Of a stretch of DNA of 64,000 bases, positions 41,669-47,304 are shown piece by piece. The number at the start of each line of letters is the position of its first letter. Position 1 is the first letter of the stretch. A program made the position numbers and the translations under genes. Location: NCBI RefSeq assembly GCF_002001125.1, contig NZ_MUNV01000026.1:1-64000 (forward strand). Direction: 5' to 3'. The notes under the pieces were generated by a model that saw nothing but the letters and a program-made list of their open reading frames with translations, had not been told where the DNA came from and made no database searches. Source of the stretch: Rhodanobacter sp. B04 (GTDB taxonomy: Bacteria > Pseudomonadota > Gammaproteobacteria > Xanthomonadales > Rhodanobacteraceae).

Positions 41669-41800
41669 TGGCGCCGGTCGGCCGGAGCATGCCGGCGTCA
41701 ATCTGCCGCAAGGCAGGCGGCGTGCGCGGCATTATGCTGGAGCGTTGCGGGGTTTCGAGCCGAAGTTCCGGCCCGGATGGGTCGCTGGTGCGCTGACGTG

Positions 41801-42676
41801 ATGGCAACGTTGTTGAAATGGCTGGTGCCGTGGGAGTTCTCGTGGGTATTTCTCGCGATCTTCCTGTCGACCTGCGTGCTCTACGCACGCGGCAGTCGCC
41901 GGCTCTCGGTGAGCTTCGGTCGCAAGCTGGCGTTCTGGACCGGCATGGCGATCATCTACCTGTCGCTGCAGACCTATCTGGACTACTACGCCGAGCATGA
42001 GTTCTTCATGCACCGCATCCAGCAACTGCTGCTGCATCACCTGACCCCCTTGCTGATCGTTGCCACCTACCCGGCCACGGTATTGCGGGCCGGGCTACCG
42101 CTGGCGTGGCGCGTGCGCGTACTGCGGCCGGTGCAGCGATCGTGGCCATGGCGCCTGATCAGCGCGGTGATCCTGAACCCGCTGCTGGCCACGCTGCTGT
42201 TCGTCGTGTTCGTGCTGATCTGGCTGATCCCGTCGCTGCAGACACTGGCGATGCTGGACTGGCGGATCTACCGCTTCATGAACTGGACGATGCTGATCAG
42301 CGGGTTCGCCTACTGGTCGCTGGTGCTCGATCACCGGCCGCATCCGCCAGGACGGATGACCGCCGGTTTGCGGGTGTTGTCGCCGGCGGTCACCATGACG
42401 CCGCAGATCCTCGCCGGCGCCATCGTCACGTTTTCCAAGACGGATCTGTACCCGATCTTCGAGATCTGCGGTCGCGCGTTCACCTTCAACGTGCTGACCG
42501 GTCAACTGATCGGCGGCGTGATCACCTGGGTGCCGGCAGCCCTGATCGAGTCGATCGGTGGGTTGCTGGCGCTGCGTCAGTGGCTGCGGCTGTCGCGCAA
42601 CGGGCGGCTGCCACGCAGCCTGCCGCGGCGGCGTCCGGCAGCGCACGCGGCGGTCGATGCGATCGCACCGGACTGA
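41801..42676 (+). CDS. Cytochrome c oxidase assembly factor, CtaG/caa3 type
   Basis: A 291-residue membrane protein with about seven helices. Family features: YYAEHEFFMHRIQQLLLHHLTPLL with conserved His residues, the GMAIIYLSLQTYLDYYA helix and PAVTMTPQILAGAIVTFSKTDLYP. The caa3_CtaG family helps copper insertion into cytochrome oxidase. ATG 41801 is chosen over 41777. It converges on the PCuAC and SCO genes, which encode further copper-delivery factors. Confidence 0.88.
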   Translation: MATLLKWLVPWEFSWVFLAIFLSTCVLYARGSRRLSVSFGRKLAFWTGMAIIYLSLQTYLDYYAEHEFFMHRIQQLLLHHLTPLLIVATYPATVLRAGLPLAWRVRVLRPVQRSWPWRLISAVILNPLLATLLFVVFVLIWLIPSLQTLAMLDWRIYRFMNWTMLISGFAYWSLVLDHRPHPPGRMTAGLRVLSPAVTMTPQILAGAIVTFSKTDLYPIFEICGRAFTFNVLTGQLIGGVITWVPAALIESIGGLLALRQWLRLSRNGRLPRSLPRRRPAAHAAVDAIAPD

Positions 42677-42689
42677 TCGGCAGCGTGGG

Positions 42690-43208
42690 TCAGTGGCCCG
42701 CCTGTGGCATCGCGGCGTGATCCATCGATTTCATGCCCATGGCCGGCATGGCGCGATCTTCGCCGGCATCCACGGCATTCGCCGGGCGTGCGAGGAAATC
42801 GGCAGGCAGGGTGCTGCCATCGGTGAACTGGAGGATCAGCCTGACCGAGTCGCCAGGCTGCACCGGCCGCGTCGGTTTCATCAGCATCAGGTGATAGCCG
42901 GCTGGGGCCAGCACGGCCGAACCATGGGCCGGAACGCTCAGCGAGTCGACCATCGCCATGCGGCTCATGCCGCCTTCGCTGGAACTCCGGTGCAGCATCA
43001 CCTCGCCGTACGTCGTACTGTGCGCGCCGCTCAGCGCGGCCGCCATGTCGCCATCGTTGGATAGCGTGACATAGGCGCCCGCAGGCAGGTTGCCTGGCAA
43101 CACGCGGATCCAGGCGTGGCTGGCATGGACGTGCTCGGCCGCGCTGGCATGCGCGCCACCGGTCAGCAACAGGCCGGCGAGCAGGAACGACAAGCGGCGT
43201 GCCCTCAT
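42690..43208 (-). CDS. Periplasmic copper chaperone PCu(A)C
   Basis: A 172-residue protein with a signal peptide (cleavage about residue 24, after SAA). The PCuAC domain has HAWIRVLPGNLPAGAYVTLSN, the copper ligand motif MLHRSS with downstream Met residues (GMSRMAM), and HLMLMKPT. The Met/His-rich tail (MPAMGMKSMDHAAMPQAGH) may add copper sites. It delivers Cu(I) to the CuA site of cytochrome oxidase. Its ATG overlaps the SCO stop by four bases. Confidence 0.92.
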   Translation of the reverse strand: MRARRLSFLLAGLLLTGGAHASAAEHVHASHAWIRVLPGNLPAGAYVTLSNDGDMAAALSGAHSTTYGEVMLHRSSSEGGMSRMAMVDSLSVPAHGSAVLAPAGYHLMLMKPTRPVQPGDSVRLILQFTDGSTLPADFLARPANAVDAGEDRAMPAMGMKSMDHAAMPQAGH

Positions 43209-43822
43209 GGCGTGGCTCCGGTGCTGAGCAGCAGGTGCAGGTCATGCACGATGTCATCCTGCGAGGCTGCCGGTGTGGCCAGCGCGCGTGCGCGGCCGTC
43301 ACGGTCGAACAGATAGATGGCCGAACCGTGGCTGACCTCGTAGTTGCCGTCGGTGCTGGCCGGCTCGCGGGTGAATGACGAACGGTAGCGCTTGACCAGC
43401 GCCTCGACCATGCGCGGGCTGCCGGTGAGCCCAACCGCGCGTGGATCGAAGGCATTGACGTAGGCATGCATCACGTCCGGCGTGTCGCGGGTCGGGTCGA
43501 CGCTGACGAACAGAATGCGCGCGCCATCGGCCAGTGGCCCCAGCCGCTGCATCACCACATGCAGGTGCGCCAGGGTCAGCGGGCAGACATCCGGGCAATG
43601 GGTATAGCCGAAATACAGCAGCACCACCTTGCCGCGATAGTCGGCGCCGCTGACCGCCTTGCCGTGATCGTCAGTGAGCTTGAAATCGAGGTCGGGCATG
43701 TGGCCGCTGACATTGGTCAGCCGCAGCGGCAACGGCTCGCTGCGTTGGCAGCCGCCGAGCAGCAAGCCGGTGGCAAGCAGCAGCAAGAGCAGGGCGATGC
43801 GCAGTGGATGGCGGGGCTTCAT
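43205..43822 (-). CDS. SCO1/SenC family copper-binding lipoprotein
   Basis: A 205-residue protein with a lipoprotein signal (LLLLLATGLLLGGC; the Cys lies near residue 25) and the thioredoxin fold. The copper site is complete: C-P-D-V-C-P in FGYTHCPDVCPLTL and the later His in YEVSHGSAIYLFD. SCO proteins pass copper to, or reduce, the CuA centre of cytochrome oxidase. ATG 43822 is chosen over 43855. Forms an operon with PCuAC. Confidence 0.93.
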   Translation of the reverse strand: MKPRHPLRIALLLLLLATGLLLGGCQRSEPLPLRLTNVSGHMPDLDFKLTDDHGKAVSGADYRGKVVLLYFGYTHCPDVCPLTLAHLHVVMQRLGPLADGARILFVSVDPTRDTPDVMHAYVNAFDPRAVGLTGSPRMVEALVKRYRSSFTREPASTDGNYEVSHGSAIYLFDRDGRARALATPAASQDDIVHDLHLLLSTGATP

Positions 43823-43900
43823 GCGAGAATCCGGAATCTTCAAGCGATCAAGCATACGACAGCGGCTGCGGCAGGGGTTCGGCCGCCGGAGAATTCACTG

Positions 43901-44699: not shown

Positions 44700-45479
44700 T
44701 CAGAGGCTGGCCGCCAGCGGCAGCGCCACGTGCAATACCAGGTCGGCGCAGAAGTGCGCCAGCATCGCGTGCTCCAGCCCGTACTTCCAGAACAGCGTGC
44801 CGGTTACCAAGCCGACCAGCGCATTGAGCAGCACGATGCGGGCGATCGCGAACGGCGCGTGCGCGATGCCGATCGCGAACGCGGCCGGCAAGTGACCGGC
44901 GCCGAACAGCAGTGCGGCCAGCACGATCGCGACGACGAACATCCACGCCTGCGCCTGCTGCCGGTTGAGCCATGCCAGCAGCCACACGAACAGGCTGACC
45001 AGCAGCAAGCGGCATTCGGTCTCTTCGACGATGCCGCCATAGAACGAAGCCAGCGCACCGCGCCAGGCCGAACCGAAGGCTGTGCCGGTGCCGGCGGAAT
45101 GCCATGGTGCATGGATCCGGTCGATGCCGATCACCAGCAGCCCGGCCAGCACGCCGAGCATGGCAGCCAGCCACCAGCGCGCGCGCCGGGCAGGATCGCG
45201 CGGCTGGCGATAAATCCACGCGCGCAGCCAGGGCGCATCGAGTCCGTGCCGTGCGCCGAGGAACAGGCCCAGCCAGCCCAGCAGCCAGCACAGCACGCCT
45301 GCCTGCAGGGCCTGGGCCGGCAGCAGCAGCCATGGCGGTACGGGTGATGCAGCGAATTTCAGCGGCATCAAGGCGACCAGATAGGGGCTCAGCGCCAGCG
45401 TTGCCAGCATCGCGGCAAGACCAAGCCACAGCGCCAGCTTCAGGTGCGGTCCACGTATGGCCGGATCGGGCTGCGTCAT
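44700..45479 (-). CDS. CPBP family intramembrane glutamic protease
   Basis: A 259-residue protein with about eight hydrophobic helices. The CPBP (CAAX protease / bacteriocin-processing, ABI) motifs are visible: EETECRLLL (EExxxR), FGAGHLP with the second His, and HFCADLVLH. Such proteins cleave or bind membrane peptides. It starts eight bases after the DUF3887-like gene and is the last gene of the SPFH operon, which makes a role in membrane protein quality control or peptide processing plausible. Confidence 0.87.
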   Translation of the reverse strand: MTQPDPAIRGPHLKLALWLGLAAMLATLALSPYLVALMPLKFAASPVPPWLLLPAQALQAGVLCWLLGWLGLFLGARHGLDAPWLRAWIYRQPRDPARRARWWLAAMLGVLAGLLVIGIDRIHAPWHSAGTGTAFGSAWRGALASFYGGIVEETECRLLLVSLFVWLLAWLNRQQAQAWMFVVAIVLAALLFGAGHLPAAFAIGIAHAPFAIARIVLLNALVGLVTGTLFWKYGLEHAMLAHFCADLVLHVALPLAASL

Positions 45480-45487
45480 GCTGGCGC

Positions 45488-45865
45488 TCAGCGGTGGGGC
45501 TTGATGTAGAAACCGCCGATCCTGCCATCGGCATCACAGGCCACCTGCGCGTCGATCAGGTTCTGGCCGTAGTGCAGCGAAGTAATCACCAAGGCATGGC
45601 CATCCGCCTGACTGAGTCGAGGCGACTCACGTGTTCCACGCACACCAAATTGTTGTGCGACGGCAGGCCATATCCTGGCCAGCCGGTCGGCGCTTAGCCC
45701 GGCTTTCATGCGGTCGTCGAAGTCGGTGGTGGCTCCGGCGTAATCGCCCTTGTCCAGATGATCGAGCAGCCTGGTGGAGGTGGCCTGGCAATCGGCGCCG
45801 GCGGCGTGCGCCATGCCGGCGGCGAGGCCGAGTGCGATACAGGTCGTGCAGACGATTCTCTTCAT
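45488..45865 (-). CDS. Small secreted DUF3887-like protein
   Basis: A 125-residue protein with a signal peptide (cleavage after MAHA, about residue 22). The mature part has Cys27, LDHLDKGDYAGATTDFDDRMK, a helical pattern seen in DUF3887 and Tim44/NTF2-like folds, and LHYGQNLIDAQVACDADGRIGGFYIKP at the end. AGGAAGG precedes ATG 45865, so the longer frame to 46006 is rejected. Fifth gene of the SPFH operon. Confidence 0.75.
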   Translation of the reverse strand: MKRIVCTTCIALGLAAGMAHAAGADCQATSTRLLDHLDKGDYAGATTDFDDRMKAGLSADRLARIWPAVAQQFGVRGTRESPRLSQADGHALVITSLHYGQNLIDAQVACDADGRIGGFYIKPHR

Positions 45866-45893
45866 GACGGTTCCTTCCTCGGGATGACGCCGC

Positions 45894-46088
45894 TCAACGC
45901 GGCCGCTTGAAGTACAGCAGGGTAGGTTGTGCAGGGCCGACGCAGACGGCATTGACCAGTTCCCAGCCAAGCGCACCCTCGCGGTTGAGCGCGCTGATGG
46001 TTTCATCGTCCGTGGGCGTCAGGCTGAGCTTGAGGCCGCCGCCGCCGTGCTTCAGCGTCACGACCTTGTATTCCCATGTGGCTGTCAT
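45894..46088 (-). CDS. DUF4177-like small protein
   Basis: A 64-residue protein: WEYKVVTL at the start, LNREGALGWELVNAV in the middle and LLYFKRP at the end, the DUF4177 pattern of one alpha-beta unit. Between the RHH regulator (19 bp upstream) and the DUF3887-like gene (28 bp downstream). Function unknown. Confidence 0.8.
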   Translation of the reverse strand: MTATWEYKVVTLKHGGGGLKLSLTPTDDETISALNREGALGWELVNAVCVGPAQPTLLYFKRPR

Positions 46089-46107
46089 CGGGTGCCCCTG
46101 GTTACTC

Positions 46108-46299
46108 TCAGTGATTGTCGTCGTCGGCCGGCGGTGCGGCTTTTTCGGGTTTCAATCGGCCGTTCTTGCGCAGCGCCTCGCGCAGTACGTATTCGATCTG
46201 CGCATTGACGCTGCGCAGCTCGTCGTCGGACCAGCGCTGCATCGCATCGAGTACGGCCGCGCTGATGCGCAACGGGTAGGCTTTTTTATCGGAAGCCAT
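46108..46299 (-). CDS. Ribbon-helix-helix (Arc-type) DNA-binding protein
   Basis: A 63-residue protein with the Arc/MetJ pattern: a short strand KKAYPLRIS, then helix A ([14 protein letters not shown]), a turn and helix B ([16 protein letters not shown]), followed by an acidic/His tail. RHH dimers bind direct or inverted repeats with the strand in the major groove. There is no adjacent toxin gene. It lies inside the SPFH operon and is a natural candidate for binding the direct repeats at 47285-47304. Confidence 0.85.
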
Positions 46300-46305
46300 G
46301 CGCGC

Positions 46306-46377
46306 TCAGTGCTGCCGGCGATGTCGCGCGATGCCGGCGGCGACTGCAATGGCGATGATGATGAGAATGGCGGCCAC
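46306..46377 (-). CDS. Putative 23-residue membrane micropeptide
   Basis: A GTG at 46377 with GAGGAG six bases upstream, the site overlapping the SPFH stop. It encodes one hydrophobic helix ([16 protein letters not shown]) followed by a basic tail ARHRRQH. The stop at 46306-46308 is six bases before the RHH start. The ribosome site, exact fit between two genes and membrane-like composition support it; it is too short for ordinary gene finders. Confidence 0.55.
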
Positions 46378-46387
46378 GCGGTGCTCC

Positions 46388-47257
46388 TCAACCGCTGTAC
46401 AAGGTGCCGGTGTTCACCACCGGCTGGGTGCCGCGCTCGCCGCACAGCACCACCAGCAGGTTGCTGACCATCGCCGCCTTGCGCTCTTCGTCGAGCTGTA
46501 CCACGCCACGCTTGCTGAGCTGGTCGAGCGCCATCTCGACCATGCTGACGGCGCCTTCGACGATCCGGGTACGCGCCGCGATGATCGCGCCAGCCTGCTG
46601 CCGTTGAAGCATCGCCTGGGCGATTTCCTGGGCGTAGGCGAGATGGCTGATGCGCGCCTCGACCACCTGCACGCCGGCCTTGCCGAGGCGGGTCTGGATC
46701 TCGTCGCGCAGATGTGTGTTGATCTCGTCGCCGTGGCTGCGCAGCGAGGGCTTGCCGTCGTCGTGCGAGTCGTACGGATAGCTCTGTGCCATCTGGCGCA
46801 GCGCCGATTCGCTCTGGATATGCACGTAGTTCTCGTAATCGTCCACGCAGAACACGGCCTCGGCGGTATCCACCACCTGCCATACCACGACAGCGGCGAT
46901 CTCGATCGGGTTGCCGTCGCTGTCGTTGACCTTCAGCTTGCCGCTCTCGAAGTTGCGCACGCGCAGCGACAGGCGCTGCTTGGTGTAGAAGGGATTGGTC
47001 CAGCGCAGGCCTGCCTCGCGTACGGTGCCGGCGTACTTGCCGAACAGCTGCAGCACCTGGCCTTCGTTCGGTGCGACCTGGAAGAAGCCCTTCAGCAGGA
47101 ACACCTCGAGCACACCCAGGGCGGTGCCGAGAAATATATGCAGCACGGGTTGCGCCGGATCGGCGCCAAAAATCAGTGCCGCACAGACGCCGGCCAGCAC
47201 GATGCAGAAGCCGATGAAAGGGATGCCGGCGATGGAAAAGCCATTGCGTTCGTTCAT
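46388..47257 (-). CDS. SPFH domain (stomatin/prohibitin) membrane protein
   Basis: A 289-residue protein with two N-terminal hydrophobic helices (about 10-33 and 40-58), a band-7/SPFH domain ([57 protein letters not shown]) and a C-terminal helical region ([28 protein letters not shown]), which would drive oligomerisation. SPFH proteins form ring scaffolds around membrane proteases or lipid domains. AGGGAG precedes ATG 47257. No NfeD gene is adjacent; instead a CPBP protease ends the operon. Confidence 0.93.
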
Positions 47258-47284
47258 GGTGTTGTCTCCCTGAGATGCGAAAAG

Positions 47285-47304
47285 TAGATATCAAATAGAT
47301 ATCA
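47285..47304 (-). promoter_or_regulatory. Tandem direct repeat in the SPFH promoter, candidate RHH operator
   Basis: TAGATATCA occurs at 47285-47293 and again at 47296-47304, an 11-bp period (one helical turn). Each copy contains palindromic GATATC. On the operon strand it reads TGATATCTA twice and lies 28-47 bp before the SPFH start, overlapping where a -10 box (TATGAT, just upstream) would be. Tandem half-sites at one-turn spacing are typical of Arc/MetJ-type repressors, and the operon encodes one. Confidence 0.5.

Follow-up and report, generated by a model that had tools for sequence, protein, structure and literature searches.

The stretch of DNA analysed here (the window) comprises 64,000 nucleotides of Rhodanobacter sp. 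B04 (contig NZ_MUNV01000026.1) and contains a locus in which six minus-strand reading frames lie in series, separated by gaps of 10, 6, 19, 28 and 8 bp. An earlier reading of the same DNA (the original prediction) had described six leftward frames with gaps of 28 bp or less, all of which were found on the minus strand when the open reading frames of the window were checked; the six frames are real, their layout is operon-like, and they are presumably read as a single transcript. The conserved unit at this locus is not the six-gene set but the gene for an SPFH/Band_7 protein, the gene for an Arc-like ribbon-helix-helix (RHH) protein and a pair of GATATC boxes upstream of the SPFH gene. The GATATC pair was not reported in the original prediction and falls inside the very interval that it covered (44700-47304). 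The core features, together with the micropeptide frame lying between the two core genes, are as follows.

46388..47257, minus strand: SPFH/Band_7 protein of 289 residues, core (Pfam Band_7, E 4e-27; AlphaFold2; Foldseek).
47287..47303, minus strand: GATATC-TATTT-GATATC, proposed RHH operator, core (sole exact match in the assembly; conserved in the family).
46306..46377, minus strand: 23-residue single-helix membrane micropeptide with a basic tail and a GTG start (recurs in family loci).
46108..46299, minus strand: Arc-like RHH protein of 63 residues, core (family profile against 1arq; conservation).

The association of the SPFH and RHH genes was examined in 197 genomes of the family to which the window belongs, using an SPFH search and a whole-genome search with an RHH profile. 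Close SPFH relatives and RHH profile matches were each detected in 151 of the 197 genomes; both are present in 150 genomes and absent from 45, and the two discordant genomes are G128, with SPFH alone, and G129, which is 76 % complete and shows RHH alone. From the 151 SPFH loci, 110 were chosen as the best matches, with one or two per genus taken first, and each of the 110 carries the RHH gene on the strand of SPFH, up to 790 nt downstream of it. Outside the family, the RHH gene follows SPFH in 92 of 95 loci, the three without it being L141, L148 and L154. In the window genome the RHH profile has a single match at E 1e-6, located at the operon described here. The same genome contains six further Band_7 matches (on contigs C11, C27, C28, C29 and C30).

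Searched on its own, the RHH protein falls below the Pfam cut-offs (Arc, 18.8 bits against 20.4; ParD_like, 19.5 against 23). A profile built from 20 RHH relatives matches the Arc repressor structure 1arq (E 8e-4) and single-chain pArc (E 3e-8), which places the protein in the Arc-type RHH sequence family and upholds the earlier claim that the operon encodes its own DNA-binding protein. Among the four of the six proteins that were run against PHROGs, the RHH protein matches an Arc-like repressor and the SPFH protein matches a family labelled lipoprotein. An alternative explanation is a type II toxin–antitoxin-like unit, in which the RHH protein would be the antitoxin and a neighbour the toxin, and both the sub-threshold ParD_like score and the annotation of the Qipengyuania RHH protein as a 'HicB family antitoxin' point that way; this explanation is nevertheless highly improbable, as the only constant neighbour of the RHH gene is SPFH, a scaffold and no known toxin, and PADLOC gave zero matches at E 0.1 for all six proteins. 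The candidate toxin–antitoxin pair was rejected on the same PADLOC result, the neighbours of the RHH gene in the window being SPFH, the micropeptide and DUF4177, and a defence system was likewise rejected.

Side-by-side comparison of upstream DNA revealed GATATC-N5-GATATC before nearly every SPFH gene. When the best match to this element was sought within 200 bp upstream of SPFH, with one shuffle of each stretch as the control, it was found in all 110 family loci (89 exact, 21 with one mismatch). Among the 94 of 95 outside loci with enough upstream sequence (L131 was dropped), 61 have an exact element, 21 one mismatch, 8 two mismatches and 4 four or five mismatches, so that 82 of the 94 are within one mismatch; the family membership of named loci was judged by title and identity. 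The best matches in the shuffled stretches have at least three mismatches for the family and at least two outside it. The three outside loci that lack the RHH gene are also without the element, with four to five mismatches.

The geometry of the element is nearly invariant. Of the exact GATATC pairs, 151 have the 11-bp spacing, and four deviate, each with a different spacing. The linker is AT-rich compared with upstream DNA (92.7 % against 40.3 % for family sites, 89.5 % against 48.6 % for those outside). Six of 91 outside sites have a third box at exactly 11 bp, and the other six tested offsets together yielded one; none of the 110 family sites has a third box at that distance. Upstream of SPFH in L161, L125 and L260, three GATATC-like boxes stand in a row at 11-bp steps. 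Such triple boxes suggest that the RHH protein may bind cooperatively. Paired half-sites with a five-base linker are characteristic of Arc-type operators, and the RHH protein is the predicted binder. Five-base sequences are printed between the Arc and CopG half-sites in the consulted part of a paper on AmrZ, where a G/C-rich linker is described as altering AmrZ binding most (PMC3325190); in spacing and in its AT-rich linker, the present element resembles the operators of Arc, CopG and AmrZ.

The location of the boxes is also informative with respect to the promoter. A TTG starts 8–10 nt ahead of the first box in 95 of the 110 family loci, and the promoter hexamer score is 8.35, compared with 6.9 when the flanks are shuffled. 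The boxes span the promoter spacer and extend into the inferred -10 region, from which occlusion of RNA polymerase, and hence repression, follows as the natural inference.

Taken together, these features make it probable that an SPFH scaffold operon is controlled here by its own RHH autoregulator, acting at a paired GATATC operator. The individual steps differ in strength: that the RHH protein binds the GATATC element and controls the SPFH operon is very likely, and that this control takes the form of repression is likely. In the proposed mechanism, RHH dimers would sit side by side on the two half-sites, 11 bp apart and just upstream of SPFH, and the RHH protein bound to the boxes would repress the operon that encodes both SPFH and itself. 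The purpose would be to keep a ring-forming membrane scaffold at a constant level and to release it under membrane stress. The likeness to Arc, CopG, AmrZ and RelB lies in the RHH profile match to Arc and in half-sites with a five-base linker, as in Arc and CopG. In the literature consulted, RelB and AmrZ (PMC3325190 for the latter) are described as repressing transcription of their own genes. What sets the present system apart from all four is its constant partner, a gene for a membrane scaffold.

Several observations weigh against autoregulation at the GATATC pair. The loci compared, both within the family and outside it, are mutually related, so that the counts are non-independent, and the 110 family loci are a selection from 151 that favoured the best matches. 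The outside locus L146 carries the RHH gene with no recognisable element, and the exact motif is found in three SPFH-negative family genomes (G140, G133 and G167). In a sample of Pseudomonadota, counted by eye, 46 genomes have a close SPFH relative and 17 of these contain the exact motif somewhere; among the 352 without such a relative, 74 contain it. A strict promoter scan of the window gave no promoter. Among plasmid and chromid records, where each match was compared with 2000 dinucleotide shuffles and the number of equally good shuffles counted, the Parabacteroides element has two mismatches and is modest (54/2000); the RHH gene is present in Bosea with a doubtful element (three mismatches, 142/2000) and in Rhizobium with none seen (four mismatches, 1192/2000). 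Finally, the overlap of the element with the inferred -10 region means that part of its conservation could be promoter constraint.

The last point, together with L146, Bosea and Rhizobium, where the RHH gene stands without a clear element, would fit an explanation in which the GATATC pair is merely the core promoter of SPFH, bound by a different regulator or by no regulator at all, while the RHH protein works elsewhere or serves SPFH as an adaptor that does not bind DNA. A core promoter would not require a pair of perfectly palindromic hexamers kept in 11-bp phase, and the preference of third boxes for the 11-bp step (6 of 91 outside sites, against one box at six other offsets together) is likewise not expected from it; moreover, the element and the RHH gene are jointly missing from L141, L148, L154 and two plasmid loci. 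The core-promoter explanation is accordingly considered unlikely, and binding of the RHH protein to the pair is preferred.

The genomic distribution of the motif bears on the same question. The exact motif occurs once in the window assembly and in 131 of the 197 family genomes, namely in 128 of the 151 that are SPFH-positive and in 3 of the 46 that are SPFH-negative. A few exact sites in family genomes are located elsewhere and have GC-rich linkers, e.g. in G038 and G188. Since the motif also occurs in Pseudomonadota genomes without a close SPFH relative, it is position, and not bare presence, that carries the evidence, and outside the family the motif is non-diagnostic. In one of the SPFH-negative genomes, G140 (L075, at approximately position 1500), an exact element is followed by a short SPFH-like start with no SPFH match. 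This is apparently a decayed SPFH locus in which the operator has been retained.

Breadth beyond the family was assessed from the best 80 loci of one contig scan and from 10 of 20 plasmid or chromid records with an SPFH relative. The RHH gene follows SPFH in 8 of the 10 inspected records; no RHH gene was found in the plasmids of Pseudomonas amygdali and Vibrio campbellii, and the element is absent there too. An exact element is present in Acetoanaerobium (0/2000), 161 nt before the start codon chosen by rule, and one with a single mismatch in Qipengyuania (4/2000); Deinococcus (15/2000), Nonomuraea (1/2000) and Prevotella (4/2000) each have two mismatches. Loci with Acidobacteria, Terriglobia, Gemmatimonadetes and Vicinamibacterales in their titles carry the SPFH–RHH pair, mostly with an element of zero to two mismatches, while the Gemmatimonadetes locus L154 has neither the RHH gene nor the element. 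One or two records per phylum constitute thin evidence for breadth. A near-invariant site with a linked regulator, extending from Xanthomonadales to a Clostridia record, would provide an experimental handle, as the inducing condition could reveal the purpose of the scaffold.

The SPFH protein itself is a clear member of the Band_7/SPFH superfamily (PF01145, 95.7 bits against a cut-off of 23.6). Its AlphaFold2 monomer model (pLDDT 81, pTM 0.58) has N-terminal helices at residues 11-30 and 37-55, followed by the SPFH domain and a long helix. The Foldseek neighbours are HflK, stomatin, QmcA and prohibitin, with global TM-scores of approximately 0.5 that leave the domain arrangement uncertain. The two N-terminal helices are predicted to be membrane helices, and assembly into a ring or cage is presumed from the superfamily. 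An identity as HflK or HflC was rejected on the NCBIfam scores (HflK, 26.6 bits against 159.4; HflC, 18.6 against 134.4), and an NfeD-type SPFH operon was ruled out, as no NfeD match was found among the six window proteins at E 0.5.

SPFH proteins are widespread among bacteria. To our knowledge, few cases are known of how their genes are switched on. One is the control of yuaFGI by sigma-W, as described in the available part of a 2009 study in which prokaryotic SPFH proteins were classed by sequence and operon; there the partner is NfeD, and 'DNA-binding' is not mentioned in that part of the text (PMC2636767). The SPFH–NfeD operons of that study (SPFH1/2/5) and E. coli QmcA–YbbJ share with the present locus an SPFH scaffold gene and a membrane-protein partner, and the fold matches QmcA, whereas here no NfeD match is found and the SPFH gene is accompanied by an Arc-like regulator, together with a micropeptide or a larger membrane protein. 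HflK/HflC, which operate with FtsH, are alike in fold (top Foldseek match 7vhq_E, E 2.4e-12) and differ in that the window protein is below the NCBIfam cut-offs and that no FtsH is encoded among the six proteins. The YdjI–PspA–YdjG/H system of B. subtilis likewise combines an SPFH protein, envelope stress and two integral membrane proteins, but its genes differ and an RHH regulator is absent from the consulted part of its description (PMC8581546). A 2026 survey of SPFH proteins in P. aeruginosa reports, in its available text, no conserved gene context (PMC13086221).

A literature search, which mostly covered sources outside subscription journals, found no description of the SPFH–RHH pair. Among the matches listed, the sole paper naming both an SPFH domain and a ribbon-helix-helix protein concerns Agrobacterium membranes, and in the part of it consulted the non-Hfl SPFH gene adjoins NfeD. 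The adjacency is already visible in deposited annotation, where an 'Arc family DNA-binding protein' follows SPFH in Parabacteroides.

The slot between the SPFH and RHH genes is variable. Measured up to the aligned RHH start, the gap is shorter than 60 nt in 68 of the 110 family loci, 60–145 nt in 30 and larger in 12. The 23-residue membrane peptide of the original prediction is a weak call when taken alone, and it gains substance from recurrence: 19 of the 30 loci with a gap of 60–145 nt contain a frame of 23–27 residues with a single hydrophobic stretch and a basic end, starting 7–45 nt after the final SPFH codon, while the remaining 11 have no such peptide. Under the same criteria, which were fixed after examples had been viewed, none was found in 500 letter shuffles or, on the reverse strand, in any of the 30 loci. 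Substitutions between close relatives number 56, 22 and 72 at codon positions 1, 2 and 3 (overlapping pairs, thus indicative); the few second-position changes indicate conservation of the positions that determine hydrophobicity. Elsewhere the slot is filled by proteins of approximately 75–120 residues, judged by eye to be membrane proteins, with clusters c7, c20 and c38 called in 16, 3 and 2 of 100 loci by a home-made gene caller, the calls of which are approximate; three of these larger proteins gave sub-threshold or no matches in Pfam. Loci with such larger slot proteins include L089, L046, L050, L108, L117, L123, L124, L164 and L166. The recurrence points to a group of SPFH-linked membrane peptides of about 25 residues that may easily be overlooked by gene callers.

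The micropeptide is a plausible partner or adaptor of SPFH. A signal might conceivably reach the RHH protein through SPFH or through the small membrane peptide, which we put forward tentatively. It is an equally speculative proposal that SPFH, micropeptide and RHH protein form a membrane-to-promoter sensor, in which a disturbed membrane would cause the RHH protein to be captured at the membrane, either by the SPFH cage or by the peptide's basic tail, thereby emptying the operator and inducing the operon. If true, such a sensor circuit, with the peptide optional, would be common to Pseudomonadota, Acidobacteriota, Gemmatimonadota, Deinococcota, Bacteroidota, Bacillota and perhaps Actinomycetota.

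Three further genes complete the operon-like series in the window, where Band_7, DUF4177, DUF3887 and Rce1-like/CPBP all pass the Pfam cut-offs.

45894..46088, minus strand: DUF4177 protein of 64 residues, accessory (Pfam PF13783, E 9e-9).
45488..45865, minus strand: DUF3887-like protein of 125 residues, accessory (Pfam PF13026, E 2e-9).
44700..45479, minus strand: CPBP/Rce1-like membrane protease of 259 residues, accessory (Pfam PF02517, E 5e-8).

Downstream genes were counted in those 79 family loci for which 2.8 kb or more of downstream sequence was available; the other 31 of the 110, including the window's own, were too short. Among the 79, DUF4177 is present in 13, DUF3887 in 24 and CPBP in 14; 42 loci have none of these genes, and no locus has all three. 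Over all 110 loci, the corresponding numbers are 19, 34 and 30, and all three occur in two genomes, the window's and one congeneric (L001 and L004); given the 31 short loci, there may be a few further full six-gene sets within the genus. The treatment of the six genes as a unit is thus not sustained. Neighbourhood comparison supported the SPFH–RHH association, the adjacency of which is not due to chance, and showed DUF4177, DUF3887 and CPBP to be optional.

The same counts bear on the idea that the six genes form one membrane quality-control machine, built around a CPBP protease that is organised by the SPFH ring. The six genes are contiguous in the window, HflK/C and QmcA are SPFH proteins that work with FtsH according to the parts of the literature consulted, and CPBP recurs in 30 of 110 family loci. 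Its catalytic-type motifs appear intact by eye in the window protein (EETECR, FGAGH and HFCAD; PF02517, 33.5 bits against 22.4), corresponding to EExxxR, FxxxH and HxxxD/N; of 30 family homologues, some of which are incomplete, 26 have the motifs. As CPBP follows SPFH–RHH in no more than 14 of the 79 family loci and in 4 of the 95 outside loci, and no locus of the 79 contains all three accessory genes, the organisation of CPBP by SPFH does not hold as the core function, and a six-gene machine is quite unlikely. Under autoregulation by the RHH protein, DUF4177, DUF3887 and CPBP, together with the VanY-type peptidase and PH-domain genes of Lysobacteraceae, would be optional and partly envelope-related cargo.

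In loci mostly from Lysobacteraceae (among L100-L132), a longer block follows the RHH gene, comprising DUF4177, a DUF3887-hydrolase, bPH_5, a VanY-type peptidase and sometimes CPBP. A Stenotrophomonas relative (L123) encodes DUF3887 and an alpha/beta hydrolase as one fused protein (Pfam), and Pfam searches on cluster representatives supported the hydrolase-fusion, PH-domain and VanY clusters. The accessory genes suggest an envelope theme, with no single gene required.

A divergent PurT-like gene is located upstream of the SPFH operon. Past the CPBP gene, at positions 41777-43855 of the window, are genes associated with copper delivery to cytochrome oxidase: SCO1 and PCu(A)C, both on the minus strand, and CtaG on the plus strand.

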